Assembly (NCBI GenBank): GCA_029721435.1 | Contig: CM056573.1 | Coordinates: forward strand, 100,989,447 to 101,053,446 | DNA: 64,000 nt | Source of the DNA: Gymnothorax reevesii | Lineage: Eukaryota > Chordata > Actinopteri > Anguilliformes > Muraenidae | Direction of reading: 5' to 3' | In this document: positions 11,767-48,428 of the stretch, piece after piece | How positions within the stretch are numbered: the stretch's first letter is position 1 | How the letters are laid out: each line of letters opens with the position of its first letter | Notes under the pieces: model-generated | What the model was told of the DNA's origin: nothing | The model's database searches: none | The model's input: the letters and a program-made list of their open reading frames with translations, nothing else | Translations under genes and position numbers: made by a program

Positions 11767-11874
11767 CGCAGCCCATGTGCCCGTAGCTCCTTACTGGTCC
11801 GTAAGCGCTCCAAGTCCTCCACACCTCGAAACAGGAAGAAAACATCTTTGCACTCTGGATGGGTCTCAAACAAC
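11767..11874 (-). CDS. gbx (globin X): Globin X, coding exon 2 (B helix to distal histidine)
   Basis: This is a 108-bp exon on the minus strand, preceded by ...TTTTGGCAACAG (acceptor) and followed by GTCAGTCT (donor). It encodes LFETHPECKDVFFLFR, then GVEDLERLR and TSKELRAHGLR, which matches globin X closely with no stop. It carries the conserved CD-region phenylalanines and the distal His (E7) in RAHGL. The proximal His (F8) belongs to a later exon that I do not see between here and position 1. The exon starts with the third base of the split Arg codon and ends after two bases of the next Arg codon, so the phases fit exon 1. The longer open frame around it (11574-11873) runs on into intron and is not the coding extent. 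Confidence 0.93.
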
Positions 11875-12227
11875 CTGTTGCCAAAACAACCAGTTGAATT
11901 TCAATGACAGAAGTCACATAAGCCAGTTTAATATTTTGTCTTTTTGACAATTATATTACTCTTACCTGCAAGGTCATAGATCTTGGTGATAAGGATGAGA
12001 GTAACTTATTTTAGAACGGAAATTAATAATATATACAATATATACATGTGGCTCATCCATTTGTGTGGATTATGCACTGCATGATACATAATAGATGGAC
12101 AAAAAAAACTCGCAAATTAACAAAATCAATCATTTACAGCATTATTTCATCAGTAGCATTTCGTTTTTCTTAATAAATGCAATTTTTTGGATACAGCTTC
12201 CTCTTTGCCTCTGTTGCAGGCATCTTA

Positions 12228-12552
12228 AGCTGGATTTATGGTTCTGCGTTGACTTCACGCTAAGTGCACGCCGTCGCCTCGATGCTATTGTGGATCTTTA
12301 AAAGTTCTGCGTTGAGGTCGTTTGGGTCGTGCTGCGCCGCGAAGCAATTCACCGACAAACAGCTAAGTGGTGTCAGGTTTCCGATAGACCTGTTGTGAAA
12401 TCACGTGAGACTCGAGTAGAGTGGGCCAATCAGTGCCCTTGCGGTCTGAGTCGCTTTGGCACGCAGCTGTCAAATTTTCAAGGTGCACGCAGGCGACGTA
12501 GAGGCTCTGCGTAGCTACGGCGTCGGTCCGATGCAGAACCATAAATCCAGCT
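12228..12552. mobile_element. Harbinger-like MITE with TTA target duplication
   Basis: The ends AGCTGGATTTATGGTTCTGC and GCAGAACCATAAATCCAGCT are perfect inverse copies, flanked by TTA on both sides (12225-12227 and 12553-12555). A three-base TWA duplication is typical of PIF/Harbinger. The interior is G/C-rich (ACGCCGTCGCCTCG, GGCGACGTAGAGGC) with no coding capacity. Very similar elements are common in fish. Confidence 0.85.
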
Positions 12553-12555
12553 TTA

Positions 12556-13282
12556 TGTTAATGGATTCGCTCACACGCCAACGGCTGTCCACTCGAGTTT
12601 TGTGTTCAAAGAAACTGAAAGTTCTGGGGCTAGCCAAGTACATACTTTTGTGAAAGCATGGGAGGGAAGCGAACCACATAAGATATCTGCAACGGAGGCT
12701 AACCAACACCAACATGCTGAAAATGTTCAAAAGAAGGAATTTCTTCAGGTTTCTTTGGTGTTGAAGTTTTCCCAAACACAAGCTCTTTAGCCGTAGAGCA
12801 GCGCACATCGATCGGCGCTTCGGTAGGTAGACGGTTGATGCAAGGCCAGTCGCTATCATTGTAAAGTCGCTTGATTTCCTTTATGGTCTCATCCAGTAGC
12901 CTTTTATTCTTCATAACTTTTCTAATAAAAGGTAGCATTCCATATGGTGCACAAACAGTTTGCTTGAGGAATATACAGCAGATTTAAGGGGAGAACACTT
13001 CTTATAATAGAAGGAACATCGAGTAAAATTTCCCATGTCCATGTGTTTTCTCTTTCTTTGATGCGATCCGATTATTTTACTAAAAAACATTTCATTATCA
13101 ACACATTTTTTTAAGGGTTTCGGTACCCGCAATTTTTCTTAATAATATTCCATGGGAAACATGAAAGGACTATCACATATGAAGCATTCTGAATGGCTTA
13201 TTTCACATAATGCCATTACATCACGGAACACAAAACCTTGCCCGAGTGTGCAGACTTTGGTGTGTGAGTGACATGAACCAAA
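12556..13282 (-). other. Unassigned stretch with protein-like minus-strand frames
   Basis: Short minus-strand frames (for example 12699-12938, beginning MLPFIRKVMKNKRLLDETIKE) look more protein-like than their surroundings, but I do not recognise a family. The segment shares the motif GCCTCYGTTGCAGAYATCTTA with positions 12202-12227 and 13628-13650. It could be a decayed transposon coding region. No function is claimed. Confidence 0.3.
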
Positions 13283-13630
13283 CTAGAACGGGCACTCGGT
13301 AGAGCGCATACCTTCGCCGACGCCACTGAATCCCTCGCCACTGGCGTTGGTTTCATGCCGATCGGATAAAAATTGACCGAGATATGGCCGAAAGTCGGTT
13401 TTGACCTTTTCGTGGCCTTGACCTTGACCTTTGACCCGATCACTCCCAAAATCCAATCGATTGATCCTCAGGTCATGCCAAATCAACCCACCAAATTTTA
13501 TGAAATTCCGTTTGGTACTTTTTGAGTTATTCGATACACATACATACACACAGACAGACAGACACACAAACAAATAAATACATGGGGATCAAAACATTAC
13601 CTTCGTCAGCGAAGTCGCTGGCGAAGGTAA
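13283..13630 (-). mobile_element. CCTCCGCCA-family MITE (copy 2)
   Basis: Reversed relative to the copy at 8418: it starts CTAGAACGGGCACTCGGTAGAGCGCATACC and ends GTCAGCGAAGTCGCTGGCGAAGGTAA. The middle has ACACACAGACAGACAGACACAC and the inverse of AACTCAAAAAGTACC. The open frame on the minus strand here is a translation of the MITE. Confidence 0.8.
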
Positions 13631-13800
13631 TAAGACATCTGCAACAGAGGCAAGCTTCCTCCACTGTCAAATGAAATATTTACATTATGCAGAGCAAAGG
13701 ACTGCATAAATGGTAGAACTTGATCTAACAAATAGTGCAATGCACTTAAATGCGAAGCCTCTTGTGACTGATTAGAAAATTGGCACTTTAGATTCGCCGT
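13631..13800 (-). other. Host sequence split by the hAT at 13801; possible decayed coding
   Basis: On the minus strand it reads FSNQSQEASHLSALHYLLDQ, then VLPFMQSFALHN, and seems to continue across the hAT insertion into 14711-14770. The family is not recognised. Confidence 0.25.
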
Positions 13801-14710
13801 CAGGGGCGTCACTAGACCTAATACTGTACTGGGGCACAAACAACGCGAGCGGGCAATGCGCACAAGCAAAAATTTTTTAGCAGTAATTCATCAAAAGGAA
13901 GCTTAAACAGTGCTTCAAATTATACATTCATGTCAGATTATCTTGTTGTCTGGATCTATGATTAACCTCCTGAAATGGACTGATGCATTTGGCCTACTTG
14001 TGCACTTTACTCTAGACCTCTAAACCTGGTACAAGCAAAAAAGGAATATCTCATAATGCTTATCAAACATTGATAGCAATCTCCAGAAACCGAGTTGACA
14101 GTGCTAGGCTAACCATTATGAATCAACGGTATGCCTATGATGAGCCAGTTAGCTATAAGGCAGCAGCTAATGTCTGCACTAGGCTACTTTAATTTACAGC
14201 CAGAGATAGATGGCAAGATGGCAGCTGAAAGTTTAAGCAAAGTTGTGACATTTAAATTCCCATGGAAATGGCGACACAGAGGAGAAAACAAACAATAAGG
14301 ACAGGCAGTTGCCCAGCACTAACCTGAAGACAGGTGGAAAGAATGACGACGAGAGCAGTCAGCACTGACAGACACCGTTGTGTGTGTGTGACCTTGTGTT
14401 CCGAAGTGAGCACTAGCCGAATCACAGCCAAAGCCACGTGAATATTAAGTAGCCACATGCCATTGTGGCATGTACTATACGGAGTGAAGTGAATACAGTT
14501 ATGAAGTGTATGAAGTGAGTTACAGTTATCATATTAAGTAGTTGTGTGCCTATACACTTTCTGTGTCTGTCGATTCTCTTACTGTAGATTATGTGGACAT
14601 GTAGACTTAAAATGTGATATTTTTTTATCCCCTGGGTAAAATTATACTGGGGCACTGCAGACCAATACTAAGGCACGTGCCCCGGTAAAATATGTCTGGT
14701 TCTGCCGATG
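13801..14710. mobile_element. hAT element, 910 bp, 8-bp target duplication
   Basis: The left end CAGGGGCGTCACTAGACCTA...ACTGGGGCAC matches the inverse of the right end (CATCGGCAGAACCAGACATA...CCGGGGCAC). The flanks are TTCGCCGT (13793-13800) and TTCGCCGC (14711-14718), seven of eight bases equal. That fits the 8-bp duplication made by hAT transposases. No transposase frame was recognised, so it is probably non-autonomous. Confidence 0.88.
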
Positions 14711-14718
14711 TTCGCCGC

Positions 14719-15228
14719 CCTTAACTGCTTTGTGCAGAAGCCAAATCTGGCTATTTACGTGTTACCTTATTTAAAGCTTTATAATTCAAGATTGCAGCTT
14801 CCCAGAGGAAGGGAACAGCTCAACTGAGTCAAAACACTTGAAGCAAAAAGAATTCCATTGTATTTCAGTTTTTTTTCCATGATTTTGGTAGAGAAAAAGG
14901 GCTGCAAACATTAAAAATCTTCATGAAAATTCAGCATTGAAATTGTAAAAAAATAAATAAATAAAAAAATACTGAGAATTGAAAAATGGCTAGGAGTTAA
15001 AACTATACATTTCTGGGATCAAACTCCTTGACCACTAGTATACTTCTTCTGAGCCTTACATTCTTACCTACTCTCTAGGAGCCAAATAAGACAGCTATCC
15101 AGGTGGCTCCCCGAACTCTAAGATCCCTCAAAATGGTGCACTGTCAAATCATAATGATATATTTAACACAAATCAACTTTTGCCGCATGAAATTCAATAT
15201 GAAATAATGATTTTCTGTATAATTTCAG
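14719..15228. other. Unassigned sequence before the L1
   Basis: A/T-rich, with no clear frame or repeat structure recognised. Confidence 0.45.
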
Positions 15229-15976
15229 GCTGACCTTTAGAATAACACCCACTTTATACAAAGCAAATATTTCATTGATTCCTAAACCAGACAGAGACCC
15301 TGAGATGGTATCATCATATCGCCCCATTTCATTGTTGCCGATTGAAACCAAAATACTTGGGAAAGTTAAAAGCAAACAGGTTAAGAGAATGCACATGATT
15401 GATCATTAATCCCAACCAAATTGGCAATATGCTGGGGAGACACGTTTTTTCATTTGCGCCGCCGATTTAATACTTTACATACTTAACACACGGAAGAAGC
15501 TGTTATTATCTCTTTAGATGCACAACGCACATTTGATCAAGTCGAGTGGCCTTGTATGATGTGTACATTAAAGAAATTTGGATTTGGACCCTCCTTCATG
15601 AAGTGGATTGAAATTATTAATTCACACCCAACTGCCTCAGTTATAACTAATCCATTCCCAATCAGACAGGGGAATCGCCAAGGTTGTCCGATTTCTCCTT
15701 TTTTGTTTGCAGTTATTATTGAACCATTGGTTGCTAGCATTAGACAGAACCCTTTAATTTCTCCTATTAATTTGTATGGGTATAAACATTATCTCTCACG
15801 ATATGTGGATGATATCCTTTTGTACATCTCTGATCCATAGGCATCAATACCCCCTCTTTTGACTCTTATCAATACTTTTGGCAGTCTTTCAGGATTTTCT
15901 ATTAATTGGGATAAAAGTGAATTGATGATGTTTCATCACAGGTCAGTTTGACCTTTTTGCAGTCCATACCTTTTAA
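15229..15976 (+). pseudogene. L1 LINE, reverse transcriptase part
   Basis: It translates to L1-type RT: ISLIPKPDRDPEMVSSYRPI, then LLPIETKILGKV. Later FGPSFMKWIEIINSHPTASV, RQGNRQGCPISPFLFAVIIE and the catalytic YVDDILLY (YVDD at 15802-15813) follow. Frameshifts and stops occur (for example after MIDH near 15405 and at 15838). It ends with LQSIPFK at the junction with a Tc1-like element that was inserted in it. The remaining C-terminal part of the L1 is at 19168-20862. Confidence 0.88.
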
Positions 15977-16330
15977 AACCCCAATTCTGAAATAGTTGGG
16001 ACAAAGTGTAAATTGTGAATAAAATCAAAACTCATTGGCCCTCATTTATCAAAGTTGCGTACACCAAAAAAATGGGTGTACGCCAAATCTCCCGCAAGAA
16101 TCGGCATTTATCAATCTGAACGTGAGCTAACGGTCCGCAAAAATCTCACGCCAGCTCTGACCAGGTGTACGCAAATCTGAAAACAGCGAACAACATGCAG
16201 GAATGAGTGCAGCTGTCAAAATGAGAAATAAACCATATGCAGCGATGCGGACGTCATGCTGTTGTTGTTGTTATTAGTAAAATTAATAAATAGACTAAAT
16301 AAATAAATACATAAATAAATGAATAAAAGC

Positions 16331-16470
16331 AGGCTGTTTCCAAATATAAGTGTAATTAATTTCTCTTCATAGATGTATTTATTTAATAAATGTATCTAAT
16401 AAATAAATAAATTGCATCTGTGTTGAGAAATTAGTTACTCTTATTTGGAAACAACTTGCTTGTCAGGCCA
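16331..16470. repeat. Small hairpin with AATAAATA centre
   Basis: GCAGGCTGTTTCCAAATATAAG and its inverse (CTTATTTGGAAACAACTTGC) bracket AATTAATTTCTC/GAGAAATTAG and a run of AAATAAATAAAT. Confidence 0.65.
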
Positions 16471-16559
16471 GACGGCTAACGATTACAATCCATTTGATTA
16501 AGCGCAATGCACAGCTTGGCAGATATGCGGTGTATGTCATATGCTCATCCAGTCAGATA

Positions 16560-16904
16560 TACACTGAACAACAAAAGAAACAAGAGTTGTCAGAAAGACA
16601 ACAAAGCTCGCCGGGGCAAGGTTAAAGTTTTTCTGCACGCGGACAGACGCGGACGCCGGGGGTACGACAATAGCTCTCCGGACATTCGTCCCGGCGAGCT
16701 AACAAAAGTTAGTCCAATTAAAGGCAGACTGAAAAATAAGTTTGCGTGTAATTATTTCAGAAAATCAAATTTATTACTAGCACGTGCACATTTATACTCG
16801 TTTCATCAAACTTACTTTTATTTTGCGGTCCCTTCGACTGAGTAACCATAGGAGTAGCCTACATTAACTAACTTGCTAGCTCGCGTTTCTTTTGTTGCTC
16901 AGTA
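16560..16904. mobile_element. MITE with TACTGARCAACAAAAG termini (copy 2)
   Basis: The termini TACACTGAACAACAAAAGAAAC and GCGTTTCTTTTGTTGCTCAGTA match the copy at 2307-2517, and so does the interior (TTTATTACTAGC, TGACTGAGTAACCATA). It is interrupted near its left end by a GGACG-type MITE. Confidence 0.8.
16581..16698. mobile_element. CAAGAGTTGTC/GGACG MITE (copy 1)
   Basis: The head CAAGAGTTGTCAGAAAGAC and the tail CATTCGTCCCGGCGAG bracket a CACGCGGACAGACGCGGACG middle. It is nearly identical to 23920-24047. It lies inside the MITE at 16560-16904. Confidence 0.85.
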
Positions 16905-17164
16905 TTTAGATGCCTACGGACACTTCGACAGTGATCACATTTTGACAATGGCAGATCTTCCATTGTTAGAGGAATAAGCTTCTGTCCGAAGTGAGAGGAA
17001 CTTACGGCGCACAGATCTCATCCGGGAAAGTGATGAGTGGCTGCTCGTTTTGTGTAGCATCCAATAACATGTCATGGAGTAACACTGATAAAAGAACAAT
17101 AAAGAGTGATCTCTGCAGACTGCATTTTACCAATTATCCTCATAGTGCTCCGATCGAGGAGAGG

Positions 17165-17190
17165 TGGTGGTGGGGGGGGGGGGGGGGGTT
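17165..17190. repeat. Poly-G tract
   Basis: A run of about 20 Gs after GGTGGTGGTG. The frames crossing it are low-complexity translation. Confidence 0.8.
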
Positions 17191-17399
17191 GCTCATCCAT
17201 GTCCCCACCGGCTCGGGGGAGCCCATCAGCGCTATGACAGCTGGAGGTTCGAGTCTGGTTGGCCTCCACCGGTCCGTGCGCTGTTGTAAACCGTTTTTGG
17301 GAGGCGATCTTAAAATCGGACCACTTTTTTTAACCTACATGTAACGCATTTGGATTGTCAATTATGTAGGCAATAAAACATGAAATATCGTGGATCTAT

Positions 17400-17700
17400 A
17401 AATTGAATTTATTAAGGCCGATGTTATTCGCACTTTTACGTGTGGCCAATGCAATTTTTTTTTTTTGACCAAACTTGTAAGTGTGCAAGTTGATGACCAT
17501 TCCAGTGCTGCTTAGAAAGTACCGCTTAAAATAAGTTTGGCCAAGAAAAAATTTTAGCTTTGGAATAAGTGTGGGCAATGGAGAAATGTGCGTCTTGGCC
17601 ACAATAATAAGTGTGTCTAACAAGAATTTGGTCATTTAAGTGCATCCAAGCACAAAAATTAAGTGCGAATAGTCACTTTGATTTATTAATTAATTAAATA
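17400..17700. mobile_element. Probable MITE with TTATTCGCACTT ends
   Basis: GTTATTCGCACTTTTACGTG near 17424 is inverted near 17660 (CAAAAATTAAGTGCGAATAGTC). Further in, AAACTTGTAAGTGTGC and GTGTGTCTAACAAGAATTTGG add partial symmetry. Confidence 0.5.
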
Positions 17701-19624
17701 AAACATCTGCTGCACTCCGGTTTTCCACCCCAACGGTGTTTTCTACTGTAGCAGCAATAGTTTTCCAAACCGCAGTCTACTGGGCTCCCTTTATGCCACT
17801 CTTAAGACTTCCAAATAAAATTATTTCCTTTTTCTCCATCTATCGTCGGCCTGCTGATAAAACCTCGTATCTTCAAGATGATGAACTTAACAGGAGAGCA
17901 AAAAAACAAAAAAAAAGTTAAATTTTGCATGTGAGAATGCAGTCGAGCTGTGATCAGGTAAGATGACTATTTTTCCTCCAATAATGTATCCAATCAATGA
18001 AATTTTGTATTTTGCAATGTTTATGCTATCATCGTGGACATACGAGTTTTTGTTTCTCATCAAATCATGCGAGGTTTATCAGCAGGCCGATGATATTTCC
18101 TCCTCAGTTAAGTTCTTTCTTCTTTGCCGTCTTTCGAGAGTCCATGTCGTAAAGTGGGCAGGACTATGCCTCCCAGAGCATGAATTTTTAGGGGCGTGTC
18201 ATGTAAATTACGATGGTTTCTGCCGCCAGATTTATCAATGCCACGGCAGTTCTACACCGAAATCTGTGACGTACACACTTTTAGTAAATCAGACGCGACA
18301 CTTGGCGAACGATGATATTTACACCAGAATCTACACCAGATCCTACGCAAGTTTGATAAATGAGGGCCAATGACTTTCAAAACACACCAGCCACTATTGT
18401 AATCACAATAGAACAGAGATGATCCAGCAAATGTTGAAATTTTACAATTTTACCCACTTAATGAGCTCATTTAAAATTTTATGGCTGCTTCAGATCTCAA
18501 AAAAGTTGGGACAGGGGCCAGTTTATCATGGTGTAGCCTCCTCTCTCCTTTTTAACACAGTGTGGAGGTGTCTGGGCATTGAGGAGACAAGTTTTTTGAG
18601 TTTAGCCATTGGAAAGTCAAAAGTCAAAGTCAAGTTTATTACATCCATATCAATGGAAATTACATTGCATACACCCACCGTTAGGTCACCGAATTTGATC
18701 CCACTCTTGTTTGTTCTCAATCGGTGAAAGATCAGGACTGCAGGCAGGCCAGTTCAGCACACGGACTCTTCTACTATGAAGCCATGCTGTTGTCATTGTT
18801 GCAGTATGTGGTTTTGCATTGTGCTGCTAAAATACAGAAGGCCTTCCCTGGAATAGATGTCATCTGGAGGGGAGCATACGTTGCTCTAAAACCTTTATAT
18901 ACCTTTCAGCATTCCTGGTGCTTTTTAAAACATGCAAGTGCCCCACACCATATGCACAAATGCATCCCCGTACCATCAGAGATGCTGGCTTTTGAACTGA
19001 ACGCTGACAACAGGAGGGGTGGTCTTTCTCCTCTTTAGCCTGGAGGACACGATGCCCATGATTTCCAACAAGAATGTCAAATTTGGACTTGGCTGACCAC
19101 AGGACACTTTGCTATAGTCCATTTTAAATGAGCCTTGGCCCACAGAACATGGCGGTGCTTCTGGATCAAGCTCAACAAAAGACTTCTTTATCTGCCCTCC
19201 TCAACAGTCCTACTTCAGTTAACAAATCATACTTCAGTAACAGTTTTGTTGTTGGCAATACTATAAAAATTTGGAAAAAAATAAAACTTTATATTAAGGC
19301 TCCTAAAATATATCTGTATACTTCAATTTGTGAAAATCATTCATTTGTACCTGGTTTAAATGATATAGTCTTTTCTACTTGAAAACAAAGGGGTATCTAT
19401 AATGAGGGTGATCTGTATGTTGAAGGGAAAGTTGCCTCATTTGCACAGCTGCAAGATGCTTATAATTTACCTCTGTCAAGTTTTTATAGATATTTACAAC
19501 TTCGAAATTATGTCAGGAAAAATATTTGTAACTTTGAAATCTTAAACAAACATGAGTCCCTCTTGGCAATAAATACATTTGATCCAGTTAATTGTAGGGC
19601 TGTTTCCCATATTTATCCCATTTT

Positions 19625-19931
19625 ACCTTCACCAGCGAAGTTGGGATAGAGGTTATATTTTCACCCTTGTTTGTTTGTCTGTCTGTCTGTCTGTTTGTGA
19701 ACAACATAACTTAAAAAGTAATTCACGGATTTGTCAGAAATTTTGTGGGTGCATTGCTATTACATCAAGGATGGACCCTATTCATCTTCACCGCGATCAG
19801 TGAAACAATATGGCCGCCACGGCAGCCATCTTGAAATCCTATGACACGCGATAACTCAACTTTACTCCCACTCATGAAGATTTGGATTGTGCTGCCTTGG
19901 CAGAGGTTTGCACTCTTCGAATGCCTCTAGT
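19625..19931 (+). mobile_element. CCTCCGCCA-family MITE (copy 3)
   Basis: It starts TACCTTCACCAGCGAAGTTGGG, has GTTTGTCTGTCTGTCTGTCTG and AACTTAAAAAGTAATTCACGG, and ends CTTGGCAGAGGTTTGCACTCTTCGAATGCCTCTAG. It is inserted in the L1 coding remnant. Confidence 0.8.
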
Positions 19932-20343
19932 TTTCCCCCTGTTTCCCTGCATAATAGGATTGTGGTAGACACAGCGAGATGAGGTATGGGATGAATATTT
20001 AAAGAGTATATATGATTGTTCTGTCAATGTTAGACATTGCCTTATAGCTACAGTTTAAATCATTACATAGGTTGTACTATTCTAGGGAAAAGTTACATAG
20101 TTTTTTTTTTTTTTTTAACTGATGTTTCACCTATTCGTAATAGGTGCAAGTTTATGGTCAGCCACTTAAGTCAGGACTTCTAGTCATGTAGTAAACTATA
20201 CATTTTGGAAAACATCCTTCATTGTTTCTCTGAGGCATTTGGAAAATGTTGGAAACCTGACCCTCTCACAGCCATTCTTGGAGCAACTGGTACTTTGCTT
20301 TCTGCCAGTTAAAACTAGAATGGTTTTTACACGTAAAAACAGA

Positions 20344-20645
20344 TGTCTCCCCCTTCCCCCATTTCACATTTTAGAGTTATGGTCCGGAAACGAGTCCACC
20401 CTTCAATATGCCTAAGTCCAAATTGTCGCCATGGAAACAGAAAAAATAAAATTCAAAAGCAGTTCAAACCCTCAAAAGGCACATCTACATGTTATGGAGA
20501 GACTCTATATCAAATTTGGTGAGAATCGGTCGAACAGTTTCAGAGTTATGCTCCGGAAACAAATGGGAACGCCGACGCCAACGCCAACGGGAATTCAGGC
20601 AAAAACAATATGCCACCCCCCCCCCCCTCTAGGAAGTGGGAGACA
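20344..20645. mobile_element. MITE with TGTCTCCCMCTTCC ends, in L1
   Basis: TGTCTCCCCCTTCC on the left is inverted on the right (GGAAGTGGGAGACA). The interior repeats the phrase AGAGTTATGGTCCGGAAACG/AGAGTTATGCTCCGGAAAC. It splits the L1 C-terminal frame. Confidence 0.7.
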
Positions 20646-20862
20646 AAATGAGGAGTTAGCTGTTTTATTTGGACTGATAATTGCAAAAAGGTTAATTCTG
20701 CGAGTGTGGAATTTGGATTCCGCACCCGCATATGAATTATGGTTGAGAAAAATGGCAAATACGTTACACCTGGAGAGGCTAAGGTTTTATAATGAAGATA
20801 GAGGAGAGGTATTTGACAAGATCTGGGACCCTGTTCTGAATTTTTTTCAAAGTACAAATTGA

Positions 20863-21042
20863 TTTGCTGTGTCCACTGTAACATACCTTGCTGATTTTTT
20901 TTTTTTTTTTGCACATATATATCCTTATATATTTAAAAAAAGCTGATATATTTAATTTATGACTGTGGTTATTTACTTTTTGTATGTGCTGCTTTTTCTA
21001 TTATTTTATTATTATTAAAACATGATGTGTTTGTGAGACACT
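20863..21042 (+). other. L1 3' non-coding tail
   Basis: A/T-rich sequence with a poly-T stretch and ATTATTTTATTATTATTAAAACATGATG, following the L1 stop. Confidence 0.5.
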
Positions 21043-21439
21043 GATGCCCCCGTGCAAAACATGCTCATGATAACCATTAAAGGCCTATCATGAGTCAATC
21101 AAAGGGTAAAGGTCAAGGTCACAAGGTCAACATGCATTACCTCATCAGAAAGGCCTTATCCTAAGGAGTACATATGCCAGGTATCAAATGCCTATGACTA
21201 GCTAATGAAAAGTTATGGCCCATGTTTTTGTCACCAAACGTCATGCTCCAAGGTTAAGGTCACAAGGTCAAAAGTCATGACCCCATCCGAAATGCCTTCT
21301 CACAAGCAATGCATATCCCAAGTATCAAAGTCCTATCATGAGCGGATCAAAAGTTATAGCCATGGCAAAGTGCGGACAGACACACAGACAGACGGACAGG
21401 TGAAAAACTATATGCCCCGAAACTTTGTTTATGGGGGCA
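21043..21439. mobile_element. GATGCCCCCGT...GGGGGCATA MITE
   Basis: The ends ATGCCCCC and GGGGGCAT are inverse. Inside it repeats AAGGTCAAGGTCACAAGGTCAA and ATCATGAGTCAATCAAAGG-type blocks two or three times. It finishes with CAGACACACAGACAGACGGACAGG before the tail. Confidence 0.72.
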
Positions 21440-21922
21440 TAAAAATAAATGAATAATATTTTCTAGTTGAATTTAGCATGAGTGTATCAATATAGGTGCA
21501 GTTGGACATCAGTGGTCACCAGTAACCTTTCCAAACACAAAACATTCCTTTTCTGCATGATAAAGTTTAGAATTTTGTCCATTTTTCTCCAGAGTCCCAC
21601 AAGCTAGCACACATGCTCATTAAAGGAACTGCTTATTTAACGATCAGAACATTAACCATGAAATGAAAAGCCAGCAGTTCCCACTTCTTAGCTCGCAATC
21701 TTATACAAACACTTTCCACATCTAATAATATCTGAAATATACCTTATTATAACAGAGCAGACTGTCCACTATCAGGAAAAATCAGGCAATATTCTACCCT
21801 GGATTGAACAGAATGGTGCGATGAACATACCAGGGGGTCAACCAAAGTCTTTGAGCTGTTGGCATAACAAACAAGCCAAAACATCGGCATTTGATTTCAT
21901 TGTATATGGTATAAATTCAAAA

Positions 21923-22208
21923 ACAACGAGAGTTTGTCACTAAAGTGACTATATCCCCCGCCGTTAGGTCACCAAAACCGACTGGTGTCTACGCATTCCC
22001 AGTAGGAAGGTTAGTACCAAAAAGAATTGAAATAGGTTGACTCCTTCTTGAGATATCATGCTGACAATGTTCGGGACGGACGTACGTACGTACGTACGGA
22101 CAGACGTACGTACGGACGTACGTACGGACGGACGTACGGACGGACGTACGGACGGACAGAGCTGAATACCATATCCCCCGCTTCGCGCTAAACGCCCGGC
22201 GGGGGATA
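21923..22208. mobile_element. GGGGGATA-family MITE with ACGT/GGAC microsatellite
   Basis: The head AACGAGAGTTTGTCAC...ACTATATCCCCCGCCG is followed by a long GGACGTACGTACGG stretch (about 22075-22158) and the tail ATATCCCCCGCTTCGCGCTAAACGCCCGGCGGGGGATA. The overlapping minus-strand frames rich in SVR/YVRT are translations of the microsatellite. Confidence 0.82.
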
Positions 22209-23087
22209 AAAAGCCACATTGAGCAAAATACAACCACAGTAGCAGTAGCAGTATTTCTTCATTGAATTCCTCCTTCAAAGACAGTAGTATCTGGTGGAAC
22301 GTACCCTCTAGCCCTTTTTGATTCTGAATAATTCCTATTTACCACTTCCATACCTCATTTAAATCCCGTAAACGTCACTGAACACTTCAGGTCGGTTTTG
22401 GATATCTTTTTATTTTAAATTGCATCATTTTCACTGCGCTTCTGTGCCCAATGTTAACAGAATACAACCTACTTTGCTCTTTCGCAAAGGCTCTTACACT
22501 CTTCTCATTGTCCAATCAAAGTCTATACTCTCTGGCATTGGATAAGAAACGAGTCAATCAAGACATCATTAACGAGGAAGCTTCAAGTGGGCGCGAACTA
22601 TACGTGTGCAGTTACGCAGATGAGCCTTGGCACATAATTGAGTGATTGGCTATCAAAATGAGATATACTTAGGAGATTAGAAAGGATAGCTGAATTTGTC
22701 AATGGAGGAATCAACTCATAAATACACAGTGGGGAACTATGCGTTTTAGTATGTGATGACTATAATTGATAGAAGAATCACATAGTATCAATACCACCTT
22801 GAATTTTCGCTTCAGAAAACTTATTTTTCTTTACTACTAATTGGGATACCATTGGCTCACTGTAGCTGAAGTGCTTGCTACAGAGGAAAATTATTTTTCC
22901 TATCGCAAGAGATAATTTTTTTGACCTGCTATAGAGAAGAGTGCCCATGACGATTGAATCAGCATACACCGCCATTTTTAATAGCTTGGTTTTTAATTTT
23001 ATTCTGGATATTACTGGCTGGATTGCTTGCTTGCAAACATGCCTATTTGGGCCCCCTGTGGGTTTACTGAGGGCAGTGTGTGCCAGG
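22209..23087. other. Unassigned; contains one arm of a dispersed repeat
   Basis: 22810-22890 (GGCTCACTGTAGCTGAAGTG) is the inverse of 26222-26310, so a dispersed repeat is present. No gene was recognised. Confidence 0.4.
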
Positions 23088-23572: not shown

Positions 23573-23687
23573 AATTGGGGTCTCATCCGGGAGAGACCAT
23601 TGTGTAAGTCATTTATTGAAAATCTAACATTTCAAATTGTAAAATTGTTTTTTGAATTTTCCTATATATATTGACAGATCAACAGCA

Positions 23688-25060: not shown

Positions 25061-25065
25061 CAAGG

Positions 25066-25791: not shown

Positions 25792-25815
25792 ACGCTGTTC
25801 TTGAACCGTTTGGAC

Positions 25816-28652: not shown

Positions 28653-28725
<73 letters not shown>

Positions 28726-35950: not shown

Positions 35951-35959
35951 TCTGAGGAA

Positions 35960-36411: not shown

Positions 36412-36435
36412 AACTAGCTACAACATAACCGGATG

Positions 36436-37663: not shown

Positions 37664-38184
37664 GTATGCATTTTCTTTGAATTGGAAAATGTATACAAGA
37701 CTGAGAGAAAGAATAATTTAAAAAATATTTTGAAATTGAAAAAAATTCTAAAGTGGTTGCATTTGGATAGAATGTCTGCCTGTAGCAACATATGAGTGAA
37801 ATTAAATGAGTTTGGTGCCTGAGAAATCTCAAATGGCACACAAAGTACCTGAACTGTCAATATGGAGAGGGCACCTAGACAATCCTCTCTAATTTTGCTC
37901 TGATTTACTTGACTAGAATAAACTTTGGCACAGATAATGATGAGATTCTGTGCTGTAATTTTTTTAGAGGTATCAGACTGCAACTAAATAATTTCAAAAG
38001 AGATGAAAGTAAATATTTGTTTGGCAGAAATAAGATCTTTCAATTATGCTGTGTTCCATCTTCATTTACCTCGACTTGGTGACATATATACTGATTTTTA
38101 CAGGACAACAGAAATCCCAGAGATGTTACCTTAATTATGATACTAAGATTATAGACCAAGTAGTTGCAGATATTTACTCCTTTC

Positions 38185-38317
38185 ATCTTGCACATTAAAT
38201 ATCTTGTCTTTGTAGTGTACTCAATTGAATATAGATTGGAAAGTATTTGCAAACCATTATATTCTGTTTTTATTCATGTTTTAAACAATGTCCCAACTTC
38301 ACTGGAATTGGGATTTG
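38185..38317 (-). mobile_element. Tc1-like family K, terminal fragment 2
   Basis: It carries only the last ~130 bp: TTAAATATCTTGTCTTTGTA, GAATATAGATTGG, ATTCTGTTTTTATTCATG and the GTCCCAACTTCACTGG end. Confidence 0.8.
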
Positions 38318-39453
38318 TCAATATAGTGATTTAAAAAAGCTTTTGATTGGATTAAAATAATGTACAATAGGAAAACTGTCATCATTGGCCCTGACAAAGG
38401 CTATTGCTTTAAAAATGCAGTTGGTGCCAAGGCGTTGCTCTATGGCTGTCCATTGCTCCACATTCACTTTGATCGGTCAAATGCAGAAACAAATTACCCC
38501 ACAGGGTCCAGTAAAGTATATCTCACGTTACAAATGTATCGTGGTTTTTGCCCCACATGATACTGTGCTAGTTAGTAACACACCAAACAATTCCTGCAAA
38601 AGTTTGTTCAGTTAAAGAGGAAGTTAGTTTCAAGTGAACTGCCTACTGCATTCATGTATGAGGCTGGAAATGTGACACAAGGATTTTCCTGGGTGAAATT
38701 GGCCCATCTTGAATTGAAAAGAGTTTAACCTTCTTAGCTGAAAGTACTCAGACAATAAGACCGGGAGAGCTGACATTTAGGCAACAATGAACGCTAAAGG
38801 AGCCAGCTGCTGGAGATGGAGGCCATTTCAGTTACAAGGGCCAGGCAAGGAGAGATATGGTCTCTATTATGATTGCTGCAGTGAGCTTATAGACTTATTT
38901 CCAAGCTCCTACACTTTTCAGAGACCAGAGGTCCAGTTGTGGAGGAGAAATAAACCCTCAGCATTTGGAAGATTTCTCATTATGTGAAGCCCCACTGTGC
39001 TTTTATACCAAGCAGCAATCACAATATGTCGGGTACAGGTAGACAAATACTTCCTCCCTTTAGCTTATGGGGTGAATCAGAGCCCTTGCCTGCTATATCA
39101 ATTCATGAATACCTTTGTCCAAAGACATACAAAGAGGGGAAAATTAATGGAACTTCCTGCTTGAACTCTACAACCCTTCTTTCAATGTTCACAGAGCAGA
39201 GCCAGTACTTTTATGGTCTGCCTCATATTCCCCCGGGGTTGCGAGGGGATGCTCAGTTTTAACAACCAGTGCAAATCGAATACCTCTCGTGATGAGAAGC
39301 GCAATACATGTTTGACGTGGCGCATCGAAGGTACATGAAGTTCATTTCCATATCAAGGACGGTATCTTTGGATGAGGGAGGTCAAGCACTATTCAGTCTC
39401 TTTCAAAGAGACTTGCGGGGTGCCCTCTACCTGTACTCAATACGCATAAATAC
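38318..39453. other. Unassigned sequence
   Basis: Several short open frames exist but none resembles a known protein. A short palindrome AGTCTCTTTCAAAGAGACT is at 39394-39412. Confidence 0.45.
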
Positions 39454-39532
39454 AATTGAAGCACCTATTACTAAAATCCCATAAGTCACACTTGACTTGA
39501 CTTGTGGGGTTTTAGTAATCAGTGCTTCAATT
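39454..39532. repeat. 79-bp hairpin
   Basis: AATTGAAGCACCTATTACTAAAATCCCATAAG is inverted as GTGGGGTTTTAGTAATCAGTGCTTCAATT (listed in parts), leaving a short centre. Confidence 0.75.
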
Positions 39533-39853
39533 AGGGCTCTTACTGAAACAACAGGGTGCCCTCACGACAAGTCTGATATTGCAGGTCAGATTCAACTCCT
39601 TTCTTCTCACAGATTTCACAGTCCAGCTGACACAGACTGCACAGGCTCCATGTACCATGTTCTTGTTCCCCCCATTTAGAGGTCTATTCAAACAATAAAA
39701 AAAGAATGAATCTGATGTTCTTGCTTCAGGCAATTATCCTTGTTAGGTATGATCCTTCATTTGATTTTCAGGTCATGCGGCCAGCTCACGGCAGTTCCCG
39801 TGTCACACTTAATCCCCATTACTGTGAATGCAGGCTCAAGGACTACAACTATA

Positions 39854-41447
39854 CAGTGCCCTCCATAATTATTGGCATCCCTCGTTAAGATCTGTTAAAA
39901 CCCTAAAAATAATGTTAATTTTTTTATTGCAGAAGCATTCTCTCACACTGAAAATTGTAGAAAAATGTAACCTTCAACTCAAGTAAATTTTAAGAGGAAA
40001 AAAATCCCACAATGAAAATTAATTATTTTTCATAAAATCACCTGTTCCACAATTATTGGCACCCCTAACAATTCCTAGGAAATAAATGTAATTGAAGTAT
40101 TTCTGTCATTTTTACAGTAGTTTACAAAGTTGATCGGAGTATCTGGGAACATTTAATTAGTAATTCATCACTTCCCGTTTCCCTGGGGTATAAATATGAT
40201 GTGACACACCGGCCATTTCTCTTATCCACTCTTCAACATGGGAAAGACAAAGAAACACACAATTCAAGTAAAGTAGATGTGTGTCGACCTTTACAAGTCA
40301 GGCAATGACTACAAGAAAATAGCCACTCGCCTGCACCTGCCCATAACTACTGTCAGAGGAATCATTAAGAAGTTTAAAACAACTGGAACAGTGGTAAACA
40401 AGCCTGGACGAGGACACAAGGTTATTTTGCTACCACACACAGGGAGGAAGATGGTAAGAGAAATAAAATGTTCTCCAAAGCTCATGTTAAAGAATTGCAA
40501 CAAATGGTGGCATCTTGGGGTCACAAAGTCTCCAAAATAACGATCAAACAAACTGTTTAGGAGGCATGCACGGAAAAAAACCATTTCTCACTCTCAATTA
40601 TTAACGCAAACGTCCGGAGTTTGCTAAGCGGTACTGAGACTTCAACTGGGACCGCGTGCTTTGGTCAGATGAGACCAAGATACAGCTTTTTGGCAACAAA
40701 CACTCTAAGTGGGTCTGGCAGAACACAAAAGATGAGTATGCAGAAAAGCACCTCATGCCCACTGTGAAGTATGGGGGAGGATCGGTGATTCTGTGGGCCT
40801 GTTTCTCTTCCAGAGGCCCTGGGAACCTAGTTAGGGTGCATGGCATCATGAATGCTTTGAAAAACCAGGACATTTTAGATCAAAATCTGGTGGCCTCTAC
40901 CCGAAAGCTGAAGATCGGTCGTCACTGGATCTTTCAGCAAGATAATGACCCGATGTGGCCAAATCTACACAGAAATGGTTTACCAGACACAGAATCAAGC
41001 TCCTCCCATGGCCATCTCATTCCCCAGACCTCAACCCCATTGAATATCTGTGGAGTGAGCTGAAGAGGAGAGTGCAGAGGAGAGGACCCAGGTCGCTGGA
41101 AGATTTAGAGAGATGTGTAGAGAGGAATGGTCGAAGATCCCTCTTTCTGTATTCTCCCATCTTGTGAAACATTATAGGAGAAGATTAGGGGATGTTTTGT
41201 TGGCAAACAGGGGTTGTACAAAGTATTAACATCAGGGGTGCTAATAATTGTGGCACACATAATTTGATGTTAAAGAATTATTTCTTAATGTGGGATTTTT
41301 TTCCCACTGAATAAATGCACTTGAATTCAAGGTTGGATTTTCCTTTTTTTTCCATTGTGGTCCTATATTTAGGAAAAAAAAACTGAATTTATTATAAGCT
41401 AAAGTACACATCTTAACCAGGGGTGGCAATAATTATGGAGGGCACTG
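39854..41447 (+). mobile_element. Tc1-like transposon, full length, dead
   Basis: CAGTGCCCTCCATAATTATTGGCACCCC-type inverted ends stand between TA dinucleotides (39852-39853 and 41448-41449). At 1594 bp it has the usual Tc1 length. It carries one transposase remnant (40238-41168). Confidence 0.93.
40238..41168 (+). pseudogene. Tc1 transposase remnant
   Basis: The start MGKTKKHTIQVK is followed at once by TAG, then the frame continues CVDLYKSGNDYKKIATRLHL, TTVRGIIKKFKTTGTVVNKP and GRGHK (paired helix-turn-helix with GRPR-like hook). The catalytic core has LWSDETKIQLFGNKHSKWVW (first Asp), IFQQDNDPMW (second Asp; the usual His after NDPK is Trp) and SPDLNPIEYLWSELKRRVQR (Glu). At least two frameshifts separate these parts, so no active protein is possible. 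Confidence 0.9.
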
Positions 41448-41449
41448 TA

Positions 41450-42914
41450 GATGCATAGAGATAGCTCCACCAAAGAAATAGTTGTCATAAATCCAGTATT
41501 TTCTTTGTGACTTCTTGTGTTGCTGTTTAGAGGCTTAAAGTAGCTCGTATCTCTTCAGCTGCACAATCCTGACAGGAGGGAATGGAAAACTTGCAGATTT
41601 TTTGACACTTTCCATTAGCGCCAGGAACATGTTTTCTCAAGTGCATCAAGTGTGATGAGATCAGTGTACCCTTTCCAGGTACCTCAAGACTAACTTTGAG
41701 ATGTAATGAATCCATAAAGGGATGAGTATTACTCTTAAATAGAGCAAAAGCACAGTCCGTTTACATTTTGACATAAAATCCATTTTTGCTGCAGGGTATT
41801 TTGTAATGAATAAGAACACAGTCTGGCTCAAAATGATGCCTACATCCCTACTCAGACCAATTCCGTAATCATTGTTCAACATTGTCCCCTGCTTTTCTCT
41901 ATATTAACTGACTCGGGGACATCAACCGCGCATGCGTATGACCAGGGTGCAATCTATGGGGGAGTGGGGGGAAGCGCCGCCCCCAGTACTGAAATCACGT
42001 GATTTGACCCTCCCTGTGGTAAAGGAAACATCAATGAAAAAATCATATTTATTTTTGCAGTCATGGGCATTTCAGTTGTTCTGTCCCCACAAATCATAAA
42101 CTAACTGTCACGCCCAAATACTGAGGTCCAAAACACATTTGGCAAAATAGCAATCCTAGTTGGGCCTCAAAGTCTGATTCCTGCTGCTTTGACAGAAGCA
42201 CTTCAGGATTGAAGAATATATAGAGGATCTTACATGAATGGACATGCCATATGAAAATTTACTCAACAAGTTGCATAACTTTCTAATTGCACGACCAAGA
42301 GTATAAGATTCTGTTTATCATATAACTGGATTGCGTAATTTAATAGAAAACAAATGTAGTTTCGGTTAGTGCGCATTGATTGTTAGCACTGAGCTAACTC
42401 CATCCCTCTGCTAACAAAGTCAGTCACTGAGTCAGACATTTGCAGCTGAACTTGCCACGGTTTGAAAATTCAGTTAACTGATTAGCAAGCCACCATAAGC
42501 TCACTAGCGAACAAATTAATGTTACATAATGGTTATGAAAATGTACAGCGTACACACTACCTAAGTAACTTGAACGTAATTATGCAAGTGGCACCTAACA
42601 AGCTCGTAACAGTGCTGAGCCATACAAATTGAACCATTATTACACTTGGTATTCAGTTTGGCTAAATATCACCAGCGTGACGCATCGTATCATATTTTTT
42701 TCCGCACGCTCTCAGCCAATAAGATTTTGCAAAAGTGATATTACCCTTGGGTGATATCAAAAATATGTCATTGGCTTGGCTATGGGAAAAGTGCTGCATT
42801 TATGTAACAAAATATTATGTTGAACATTATAGATTTGAATTTGGAAAAAACAGAAATGCATCTGGAAACCGAGAAATAATACATTGTTATCTCCTTTGTA
42901 CAAACCCATCACTA
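41450..42914. other. Unassigned sequence
   Basis: A GTGATATTACCC/GGGTGATATC palindrome lies near 42735. A CAGGGTGCAATCTATGGGGG block near 41942 may be a hAT-like end without a partner. No gene was recognised. Confidence 0.4.
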
Positions 42915-43465
42915 CTCTCTGATTAAAAAAGGTCTGTGACAAATAATAAGATCCCAGTATCCTTCGTCATATTTTTTGCTTCATTATGTGCCAAATGCTT
43001 ACCATTGGTGACAGGTCTGGACTGCAGGAAGCTAGTTCAGCATGCAGACCATTTCTTTAGTGTGGAGCTGTGTTGTTGTAATACGTACAGAAAATGTTTT
43101 GGCATTGTCTTGCTGAAATAAACAAGTTCTTCCCTGAAAAAGGCATTGTCTAGATGGCACCATGTGTTGTACAAAAGCTATAGATATATCATTCAGCATT
43201 AATGTTGTCATCATAGATGTGAAAGTTACTCATACAAGGTGCACTAATGCACCCCCTTACCGTAAAGGATGCTGGTTTTTGAACTGAGAGCTAATAATAA
43301 GCAGGATGGTCCTTCTCCTCCTCAGCCTCCAGCATGCAGCCTCCATTATTTCAAAAACAAATTTCACATTTTGAATGGTCAGGCCATGGGACAATTTTCC
43401 ACTTTGTCCATCTTAATTGAGCTCAGGCCCAGAGAAGGCAGTGGCGTTTCTAGCTCTTGTTTATA

Positions 43466-44338
43466 CATTAATCAGCCACAAGATTGAAACCACTCACAGA
43501 CTCAGCAACTAATGTTGATTATCTCATAGCAAAGCCACATATTGAGATCTGCATATAGATCTTAGATCGTAAGCAAACAGTTGTTTCTCATATTCGACGT
43601 GTTGGATGAGGGAGAAATGGAAACTGAAGAACATTTACAAGCGCCAAATCATTACGACCAAACAAGTGGGAAAGGGGTTCTCTGAAGTGGCAAGACTTAT
43701 GGGGTGCTTACTGTCAGCAGATGTGAGTAACTGCTGACCGTGGTCCGAGGAGGGACAAAGAATGAATCTGCAACAGGGTTTTGGGTGCTCGAGGCTCATT
43801 GAAGCACAAGGGCTATGGAGGCTGTCCCGTCTTTTGCAAACCGACTGAGGGGCAACTGGCGCAAGTCATTGATAATTTCAATAACATTTGCAAATGAAAT
43901 GTGTCACAACACACAGTACCTCATACCCAGCTCTGTATTGCACTTTTTAAGCATGCAAACCAGTCAAAGTGCCCACTCTAACCTTCACCTCTCACTCCAC
44001 ATCTGATGGCACCCCAAATGGGCTCCTGAGCTTCAGAACTGGAGATTGGAGCAGTTGAAGTAGGTTGCCTGGTCTTTTTTTTTTTTTTTTTTTTAAAACA
44101 TCATGATCTTAGGCTGGGTACGTGTTTTGTGCACCATTTACCTGGGAAGAGATGGCATCAAGATGCACTGAGAAGAAGACAAGCTAGTGGAGGGAGTGTG
44201 ATACTCTGGGAGATGTTCTGCTGGGAAACCCTGAGTTTGGGAATTCAAGTGAAGTCAGTTAGATGGAGCCGTTTCGGCGGCACAAGGGGGACCTTCACTA
44301 TATTCAGCATGTGATTGTGATACTGTGGCTGATCTGTG
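43466..44338 (+). mobile_element. Second Tc1-like element inside family K copy 3
   Basis: The left end CATTAATCAGCCACAAGATTGAAACC matches the inverse of the right end (CACAGATCAGCCACAGTATCACAATC), with TA on both sides (43464-43465 and 44339-44340). The interior keeps phrases of a widespread fish Tc1 transposase gene: TGGTCCGAGGAGGGACAAAG, GGCTCATTGAAGCAC, TTTACCTGGGAAGAGATGGC and AGGGAGTGTGATACTCTGG. It is shortened, with a poly-T run at 44076-44095, and dead. Confidence 0.85.
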
Positions 44339-44589
44339 TATGTGGATTTATCTTTACATAGTAGAGTTTTAACTTGCATTTGTGGATGTAGCGATTAGCT
44401 GTGTTCACTGAAAATGGATTTCAGGAGTGTTCCTGATCCCATGCAAGTGATTTCTAGTATAAAGTCCGGTCTGTTTTTAATGCAGTGCCACCTGAGGGTT
44501 TTAAGATCACAAGCAATCAGTACTCGTTTTTGGCCAAGTCCCTGGCATACAGAGATTTCTAAGGATTTTCTGAAGCGTTCAATGATAAC

Positions 44590-46059
44590 TAGCCCTGGGT
44601 TACTTAAAACTTAAAACTTTCATGAATAAAAAGAAACGCTCATATTTCAGTGGTGGTCCTCATGAAAAGAAGGCAGTTGCCAGAGAGGTGTGAAATGAAA
44701 TAAGGAAGGCTAAAATTAAGTACAAAGAAAAGATAGACAGGGAATATACTAGTGGGGATTCTCAGACAAGCTTGGCATGTGATCAAAACTATGGACTCCA
44801 TTACTAAGGTAGAAATGAGAACAAACCATCTGTCAGAGTTAACAGGGTGGAGGATTCGGACTTGCCCAACAATTTTAACTCTTTCTTTTCTCGTTTTGAA
44901 AGGACCGAGTTTTCTGATGATGTTTCCATGCTTAAAGGCTCCATTGTGTTGCAAAATGAGATTGTGATATCACAGAAATGGGTGACGGCTCCTCTTAGAA
45001 AGGTGAACGTGAGGAAGGCCCCTGGCGCTGATGCCATCTGTGGGCACACGCTGCGCCACTGTTCAGATCAGCTGGGCGAGGTCTTCGCTAACCTTTTTCA
45101 GAGGTACGCAAACTCAGGCCAGATACCTACAATCTGTAAAAATATCCACAATAATACCTATGCCTAAAGTGAAGAACTCTAGGGAACCGAAGGAGTTTAG
45201 ACCTGTAGCACTCACATCCTTGGTTATGAAAATCTTTGAGATCTTAAAAACATGACCCTGCCCTTGATTGATGGCAAGCTAGATGCCCTAGAGTTTTCCT
45301 ATGAAGCTGAAAAAGGAGTACAGGATGCAAAACTCTTTATTTTAGACAGTGTTTAAACACCTTGAGAAACCCAAATCCCACACTAGACTCTTTAGTTGCT
45401 GTTTTCTCATCAGCGGTCAACAAAATGCAGCCCCTCGTTTTGATTGAACAACTTGCCTCCAATTTTAAGTTACCTGATCAGCTTTTAAGGTTGTTTTTAG
45501 ATTTCCAAACTGACAGAACGCAACAAGTGTTAGTAAATGGAAACATGTCCTGCAATATGGTCTCAAACACAGGCTCACCTCAGGGCTGTGTCCTGTCCCC
45601 CCTTCTGTTCGTTATGTATACAGATAGCTGCAGGAGTCCCCAGGCGGGCAGACAAAAATTGCTTAAATGGGATAGTAAAGATCTGCTCATAAGAGTGAGG
45701 CAGAGGGACTTGGGCTCTCTTTGGGAGAAACAGGTGGTCCAGAAGGCAGAAAGAATCATGAGCAAATCTGACCACATTCTAACTAAGAAATTCACTTTAA
45801 TGCCATCGGGTCAGCAGTATGTAGCGCCCCACAGGAGAAGAAACCGCTATGCCAAGTCCTTCACTCCCTCCGCCATCAGTTTACTCAATACAACACTTAA
45901 CAACAGCCACTAGTTGTCCTAGAATTGTGACCATATACTACTACATTGTTGATTGTAGTTGTATCTCTGCTGCTGTACCCCCTGTCATGTAGGACAGATG
46001 GTTTTAAATTAAAACTTATTCTTTCTCATTTTATCATTATTATAATTATTATTTTTATG

Positions 46060-46093
<34 letters not shown>

Positions 46094-46220
46094 GTTGTGA
46101 ATACAAGAATGTTTTTGACATGAATGTTTGTTGTGTTTTTTTTTTTTTTTTGTGCATGGAGTATGAGCTATAAATGAATTGCACTCTGGGATAAATCAAG
46201 CTGTCTGAATCTGATAAAGC
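44590..46220 (+). pseudogene. L2-type LINE with reverse transcriptase deletion
   Basis: It reads EDSDLPNNFNSFFSRFERTE, VNVRKAPGADAICGHTLRHC, SDQLGEVFANLFQRYANSGQ and PKEFRPVALTSLVMKIFE. After a frameshift come LIEQLASNFKLPDQLLRLFL and SNTGSPQGCVLSPLLFVMYT (QG block). The frame then jumps at about 45630 to the C-terminal tail LMPSGQQYVAPHRRRNRYAK and PSAISLLNTTL. The FADD-type catalytic pair is therefore lost. A 3' region with (AAT)n and poly-T follows. Confidence 0.88.
46052..46155. repeat. AAT repeat and poly-T tract
   Basis: AATAATAATAAT at 46060-46093 and a run of T at 46135-46152, in the LINE 3' region. Confidence 0.85.
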
Positions 46221-46590
46221 ATTTCTTAAAAAGCTGAATTATTTGCCAATACAATCTTTCCGAAAGATTCAGCCTCTCAGGGATGCCCTTTTCATATCAA
46301 ATCATGCTTTTGACCTGTGTCTAAATATACTAATTAGCTGTGTGATGTGCCGCAAAGTGTATTTTTTTTTCCAGTCTTTTGTTGCCCCTGACTCAAGATT
46401 TTTGAAAAGTGCTACTAGCGTCAAATTCAAAATGAACGAGTGTTTTTTAAAAAAAAACAGAAAATTTTCCCAGTTTAAACATTTACAATGTTGTCTTTTT
46501 ACTACTTTCCACTAATAATTGGGTTTAAATGATTGATACGTCATTGCATCCGCAGTGTCCCAAAGTTCTGAATAATGGGGTATTATAGGC

Positions 46591-48250
46591 TACGTGTTGG
46601 TCATGAAAGGATATGCAAAACTTCTGCCCAGTCCCAGGAAGAATAATTAAGGATGGAAGGCTATGATGCATCAGGGCAAGTTAAGGTAATTCATAGTTGC
46701 TCGAATAATCTCTAAATTAAGTTTCACTATTGCATTCACAGTACAGGACTGTTTGCCTGCTCCACTCTGCAAACGCAATCTGATATCCGCCGGCAACACC
46801 ACCACACTTTCATTTGTGTCACAAAGCAGCTACAGCCTCGAGTCATGGTGTTTCAAGTCTGAGCAACATTACTTTTGCGGAGCTTTTTGACCAGTGGAGT
46901 CATCATAACCTAGAGCCAACAACCCGAGGTCTGTGTCTCCACTGCTCTCACTTTTCCTCGGAAAACGCGAGAAGAAAATTTCTCAAGGTTTTTTCTTTCA
47001 CTTTCCTCTCCCTTTCATTCGCTTATACACGTTGCCCAGTTTGCTTAATTTAGCATGCACCTGAAGCTGGAATAGCCTATGTCATTCATAGTGCGGCTAA
47101 CAAATATTTGGAATCGCTCGTTAGTATTTGAAACCGGACAACAATCCTACTACAACCACTGCTCTCACAACAACTCACAACTATTATTATCATTATCATC
47201 ATCATCATCATAGTAACATCTAAACATACAATGGACTTGGCTTTTTGTTCGGGTGAACTAAAACCCTTGATATATGTCATTGTGGAGGATGGGCGTGAAC
47301 CGTTGATGTTTTGAAAACTACCTATCTGTACTCAGTAAATAACATGAAAGACGCATGGCCAGCGTCCGTGCAGCTGTCAGGCGTAGCCTACATAAATGTT
47401 GTAGGAATGGATTATTTTTTTGAAGGCACAATGGTTCACTTTTTACAACGGTAAATGTTGGTTTTAGCGAGCAAATACAAAGCGGTTCATTTCGAGGCAA
47501 CTTCACCGTAACACAGTGGTGAAGCCGTAAAACGACGGTCAAACACCACTAAATCTGCATGGACGGACAAACACGCGCCCACGCACGCACGCGCACACAC
47601 ACACGCACACATTTTAGGGAAAAAATTAATTAAAACATTAAACTTAGGTATGACATGAAATAAACTGTAAGAAATTAAACACATCGTTTAGAGAGGAAAA
47701 AAAATATATATATAAAACTTAATGAAATGAAATTCAAGAACTTTATCAACACATCGTTTCAAACGTAGTGTAAGGGAGGCGTCTGTGCCATCTGTAGGCT
47801 ATACTGGATTGAGTCTGTATGGGGAGGGATCGAGGGTTACATCCAAAGCACAAAACACTTTTCCACGCGGGTAGTCTGAACCTGGGCGTTTGGTATATCA
47901 TACATTATTGCAAGGCTATGCCGGCCGAAGTTGCCTATACTTTTGAAATAGCCAAGTAGGCTAAAACGCCGCAATTTAGGCCTATACACGCAAAAACTAC
48001 ATGGGCTTCAAAGTTGATTTTCGTTAAATCGGATGATAGCCTATTCTTTTAAACCAGTGTCTTTCAAACTTGCTTTGATGGCTTATTGCAAAACTTCGCT
48101 GAATGTCTGCACTAAGTCCACAGTAAAAATAAAAATGAATAGGTAGCTATTTGCTTTGTTTATGTGAGATTTTGCCGAAGTGATAAATTCGAATCGGCTG
48201 TTCAATAGACCACTGCATCCATTGTCTACGACCTGAAATAAATTTGCAAG
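46591..48250. other. 5' part of globin X intron 1; no element recognised
   Basis: This stretch directly after exon 1 (in gene direction) shows only short microsatellites: ATTATCATCATCATC near 47170-47213 and GCGCACACACACACGCACAC near 47588-47612. It is the longest part of the intron with no recognisable transposon, so it might hold regulatory sequence. I see no specific site. Confidence 0.45.
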
Positions 48251-48258
48251 TCACTCAC

Positions 48259-48428
48259 CTTACAAACATAATGATACCAACTTTAGCGATATCCTCTTGG
48301 ATAACTTTCCACGACTCTTTGATCATTTCGATTTGCTCTTCGCTGAGCCGAGCGGCGACAGTTTCCTCATCTTTCGCTTCCCTAGTCTGTTTCTGTGGCG
48401 AGCCAAGTCCTGATATTGCGCAACCCAT
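48259..48428 (-). CDS. gbx (globin X): Globin X, coding exon 1 (N-terminus)
   Basis: Read on the minus strand, the ATG at 48428-48426 opens 56 codons plus two bases. The protein begins MGCAISGLG and contains the globin A-helix segment LSEEQIEMIKESWKVI, then IAKVGIIMFV. Fish globin X starts the same way. The family is a membrane-attached, hexacoordinate globin kept in fish and amphibians and lost in mammals. Gly2 and Cys3 are the positions expected for N-myristoylation and palmitoylation. The exon ends ...GTAAG followed by GTGAGTGA, a strong donor. The last two bases AG join the first G of the exon at 11874 to give Arg, exactly the residue expected before LFETHPECKD. The ATG is chosen because the MGC lipidation motif follows it directly. 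Intron 1 starts at 48258 and is filled with transposons. The 5' UTR and promoter cannot be placed with confidence. Confidence 0.93.

Follow-up and report, generated by a model that had tools for sequence, protein, structure and literature searches.

Globin X exons on the minus strand

The window, that is the whole stretch of 64,000 nucleotides that we analysed, very likely carries the 5' part of a globin X (GbX) gene, one of the ordinary kind that probably works and that belongs to an anguilliform eel, possibly a moray. As shown in Table 1, two short exons separated by a long intron encode the beginning of the protein. Exon 1 runs from its ATG to a donor reading ...GTAAG/GTGAGT (the slash marks the splice point), and its product, MGCAISGLG...IIMFV followed by two bases, comprises the N-terminal extension and the first part of the globin fold. 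Exon 2 follows an acceptor reading ...GGCAACAG/GTTG, opens with the third base of the split codon, continues with LFETHPECKDVFFLFRGVEDLERLRTSKELRAHGL plus two bases, and ends at the donor CTGCG/GTCAGT; GTCAGT is not the commonest form of donor. The two exons join in frame with phase AG/G to give a joint product of 92 residues, and the splice points split codons 57 and 93, each after the second base, matching the GbX intron positions B12.2 and E10.2. Neither a stop nor a frameshift interrupts the 278 coding bases, three splice sites retain their dinucleotides, and there are no N bases in the window.

Table 1. Features of the globin X locus, in positions of the window
Feature	Coordinates	Strand	Details
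GbX exon 1	48428..48259	minus	170 nt; residues 1-56 and two bases of codon 57
GbX intron 1	11875..48258	minus	36,384 nt; GT-AG; B12.2; between codon bases 2 and 3
GbX exon 2	11874..11767	minus	108 nt; residues 57-92 and two bases of codon 93; B12 to E9
Inferred start of GbX intron 2	1..11766	minus	11,766 nt or more, should the gene continue
CpG-rich stretch, possible promoter region	48201..48800	minus	over exon 1 and the adjacent upstream side

The assignment to globin X was measured with profile HMMs built from up to 120 fish GbX proteins and cut into exon segments, the targets being the stop-free six-frame pieces of the window. The exon 1 HMM gave 106.3 bits (E 1.5e-31) at exon 1 and the exon 2 HMM gave 91.9 bits (E 2.1e-27) at exon 2, with next-best scores in the window of 9.1 and 8.8 bits, respectively. 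In 20 shuffled control windows, made by permuting two-base blocks so that dinucleotide content was not fully kept, the top scores were 10.1 bits for exon 1 and 16.2 bits for exon 2. The Pfam Globin profile (PF00042) reached 20.4 bits (E 0.00076; profile positions 4-38 of 117), below its gathering cut-off of 22, because exons 1 and 2 alone, about a third of the domain, are present. A search of PDB sequences returned nerve hemoglobin, cytoglobin, myoglobin and plant hemoglobin at E ~4e-7 to 8e-6 (best 60 of 269 sequences); its top four rows, designed TIM barrels, were rejected because they matched through repeated low-scoring pieces, the real signal being the globins ranked lower.

A preliminary description of this DNA had reported two minus-strand exons with consecutive parts of globin X, and the in-frame junction, the HMM scores and an identity of 89% to the Anguilla protein bear this out. 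Its coordinates, its junction 48259/11874 and its splice signals were exact, and its 36.4-kb intron measures 36,384 nt. It had also proposed aligning a teleost globin X with the window; a full-length Anguilla query matched both exons and ended near their donors, matching exon 1 up to the donor and continuing for just six residues beyond exon 2 (RSVSII vs RVMSFI).

Comparison with known globin X genes

Two published accounts place the introns of GbX at B12.2, E10.2, G7.0 and H10.0 in fish, amphibians and turtles, and give the first coding exon of fish and Xenopus GbX a length of about 57 residues (PMC3206486; PMC4524481). Since both exon ends lie at published GbX intron positions, we conclude that the gene follows the standard five-exon plan, with a long intron 1, and is not a new form of the gene. 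The exons and the intron of the earlier formulation 'two exons separated by one 36-kb intron' stand, but they are the first two of the five known GbX exons and do not make a two-exon gene. The boundaries between exons 1 and 2 and between exons 2 and 3 equal those published for fish GbX (PMC3206486). The softshell turtle gene likewise has four introns, at B12.2, E10.2, G7.0 and H10.0, but as located in its description the whole gene occupies about 16.8 kb (890205-873421; PMC4524481), whereas intron 1 alone takes up 36.4 kb here. No published size of an eel GbX gene was found in the open-access literature searched.

Our homolog set consisted of the best 120 of 311 protein matches and therefore leans to close relatives. 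In this set (best 120 of 311) the best matches were fish x globins, at no more than 89% identity over the full length: x globin of Anguilla anguilla (P0002; 89%, 92/92 residues, E 2.3e-44), that of Synaphobranchus kaupii (P0003; 89%), and a protein of Albula glossodonta (87%). The first two share with the window protein the MGC start and the distal His, and differ from it mostly in the N-terminal extension (18-19 of 26 residues shared) and by a D where it has G at residue 74. Automatic naming has labelled several matches of this set neuroglobin-like or cytoglobin-like. No Gymnothorax protein is among the best 120 of 311 matches, which decides nothing because the database is clustered at 90% identity and representatives alone are named. 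The suggestion that gene finders could easily miss such a gene found no support: the annotations of many fish, Anguilla among them, give GbX its name (best 120 of 311).

Conservation and intactness of the visible part

The MGC start, the Gly2/Cys3 acylation motif, is present in the window protein and in 120/120 listed GbX proteins; an MGC acylation start has been studied in zebrafish GbX (PMC3176823). His90 is equally constant (window protein and 120/120 listed homologs), and the E10.2 intron at codon 93 suggests that it is the distal His (E7). In the fold part, residues 27-92, 64/66 positions are shared with Synaphobranchus and 63/66 with Anguilla, against 18/26 and 19/26, respectively, in the N-terminal 26 residues (Fisher p 0.0005 for Synaphobranchus and 0.005 for Anguilla, with the boundary 26/27 picked after the alignment was seen). 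Such a gradient of conservation, fold over extension, is what would be expected under purifying selection. The visible part of the gene, with its open frame, MGC start, distal His and nearly unchanged fold, gave no sign of a pseudogene.

The CpG observed/expected ratio is 1.24 in the 500-base window from 48301, compared with 0.56 for the window as a whole. The CpG-rich stretch over exon 1 fits a possible promoter and is not specific to one, because 13 windows elsewhere rank higher (rank 14 of 635).

Searching for the remainder of the gene, we obtained no HMM match above 6.7 bits to exons 3, 4 or 5 anywhere in the window, in agreement with the earlier placing of the proximal-His exon outside it, and the proximal His (F8; expected in exon 3) and the introns G7.0 and H10.0 were not encountered within the window. 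With no match to exons 3-5 before the left edge of the window, intron 2 probably measures 11,766 nt or more if the gene continues. This would-be intron holds a tandem array at 3558-5503, in which a 188-base unit is present in 5.4 copies at 90% (TRF) and more diverged matches extend to about 5503. The frame 5044-5454, also left of exon 2, gave in Pfam a weak DUF1935 match alone (E 0.0095), under its cut-off.

The lack of exons 3-5 within 11.7 kb would suit a decaying or truncated GbX copy, with clean exons 1 and 2 and with exons 3-5 lost or broken past the left edge, for instance after inflation by mobile elements. Such a copy could also account for a G at residue 74, where D is conserved in 116/120 listed GbX proteins, and for a divergence, concentrated in the N-terminal extension, that sets the window protein further from Anguilla and Synaphobranchus than these two are apart. 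However, 278 coding bases without a stop or frameshift, 63-64 of 66 fold residues kept and splice dinucleotides intact at three sites argue against decay, and we consider it improbable. The D74G change was rejected as pseudogene evidence, as 4/120 listed GbX proteins likewise have G. A related speculation, which we regard as just as doubtful, is that one eel lineage is losing or retuning its GbX gene, in which case introns inflated by mobile elements, the changed, acylated N-terminal extension and D74G, at a nearly invariant residue, would jointly alter the amount and location of the protein.

Two globin X paralogs in elopomorphs

Elopomorphs carry two GbX paralogs, exemplified by Anguilla anguilla (P0002 and P0007) and Albula glossodonta (P0004 and P0006). 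A tree was built from the window protein together with 39 homologs that the analyst picked from the 120 listed; in it the window protein stood, unresolved, beside Anguilla, Synaphobranchus and Albula copy A, and a grouping of these four was not rejected (p-AU 0.505). The second elopomorph paralog, made up of the Anguilla 'neuroglobin-like' P0007, Megalops P0008 and P0017, Albula P0005 and P0006, and Aldrovandia P0019, belongs to the same family and is 77-83% identical to the window protein over 92 residues, but its six members form a clade of their own (support 98/94) that excludes the window protein. Of the published groups GbX2a and GbX2b (PMC5381549), the window protein can be placed in neither because the tree is not resolved at that depth.

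The existence of two paralogs raises the possibility that the exons stem from different gene copies, either as a tandem pair or through an assembly join; the 36-kb stretch would then not be one intron. Exon 2 alone cannot separate the paralogs because its sequence is nearly invariant across GbX. Nevertheless, the exons lie on the same strand, in the right order and with matching phase, the exon HMMs picked up each exon just once in the window, and the window holds no N bases, which makes a mixed origin very improbable. Chance resemblance and a processed, intronless pseudogene are already refuted and have next to no probability left, since the scores of 106.3 and 91.9 bits stand against at most 16.2 bits in 20 shuffled windows, the exons of a processed copy would adjoin whereas these are 36 kb apart, and the Anguilla query stops at the exon 1 donor and six residues beyond exon 2.

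Content of intron 1

The preliminary description had called the intron almost wholly transposon debris. This claim went beyond what we could recognise and may still be right: repeats and mobile elements were recognised in 33% of intron 1 (11,941/36,384 nt). This figure sums self-matches, mobile-element protein matches and intervals picked by eye; obtained without an eel repeat library, it sets a minimum for the mobile share, and a small part of it could be ordinary duplicated sequence. Self-matching DNA makes up 19.6% of the intron. An inverted-repeat element at 39852-41449 holds an open frame that, as we take it, resembles Tc1 transposase; a Pfam scan of this frame yielded no match.

Nested host genes were sought by scanning against Pfam every stop-to-stop frame of 100 aa or more inside intron 1, 33 in total, a scan that small exons would escape. 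Matches at E <=0.01 appeared in 5/33 frames, namely three RVT_1 (one under cut-off), one SCAN (under cut-off) and one GDSL, the last of which we presume to belong to a LINE ORF1. All five look like mobile elements, and nested host genes were accordingly rejected among these frames. The reverse transcriptase frame at 32600-33259 has its best match in a protein of Gymnothorax javanicus, a muraenid eel (85% identity over 89% of the frame), and the next match has 68% over 71%. This one mobile element and the nearest kin of the globin together suggest an anguilliform source, perhaps a moray.

Two further arrangements were observed in the intron. On the plus strand, 23085-25068 is a partial copy (LTR and gag, 88-89% identical) of a retrotransposon located at 57595-63665. 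Furthermore, 31258-31458 has an inverted copy at 32104-32304 (96.5%) and 31455-31790 has one at 32302-32660 (82.6%); the region 31258-32660 is not a simple palindrome because both inverted copies keep the same order, and it has the highest CpG ratio of the window.

A model for the locus

Based on the exon structure and the conserved motifs, we propose that a GbX pre-mRNA would be read from the minus strand. Exon 1 would supply the N-terminal extension, whose Gly2 is predicted to be myristoylated and Cys3 palmitoylated, so that the globin may be anchored at the membrane's inner face; exon 2 would supply the globin fold as far as the distal His, and exons 3-5, with the proximal His, presumably lie beyond the left edge of the window. 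The 36-kb intron, located at the standard B12.2 position, has probably grown at least partly through insertion of mobile elements and would be spliced out like any long vertebrate intron. The contribution is modest: one more eel GbX, closely similar to the Anguilla 'x globin', set beside relatives that reveal a pair of GbX copies in elopomorphs. The locus also illustrates why annotation has to be guided by protein or RNA where exons are short and lie tens of kilobases apart, and it leaves the picture of the nature of globin X and of the splicing of long introns unchanged.

Elements upstream of exon 1

Scans of the window with ARAGORN (bacterial settings) and with Rfam at gathering scores found nothing. 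A pair of inverted repeats at 48939-49526, each some 160 bases long (87.7%) and separated by 264 bases, looks like a small non-autonomous DNA element; it lies about 500 bases upstream from the GbX start codon. Further upstream, a tandem duplication of a 118-base unit at 52543-52778 on the plus strand (94%; TRF) overlaps the DUF5641 frame 52596-53147, which we take to be part of a BEL/Pao-like element.

The LTR retrotransposon at 57595-63665, on the plus strand, encodes a SCAN-type gag, a weakly matched zinc finger and an integrase (H2C2, p58 C-terminal), followed by reverse transcriptase and RNase H. Its enzymes are of gypsy type with the integrase before the reverse transcriptase, several frames divide its coding region between them, and its two LTRs are 87.7% identical. 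This order of domains recalls, in our estimation, the Gmr1 group. A protein search with an integrase had its best-scoring match at 69% (among 120 listed of 1032). A SCAN domain is reported for over half of the Gmr elements of a frog (PMC4131045).
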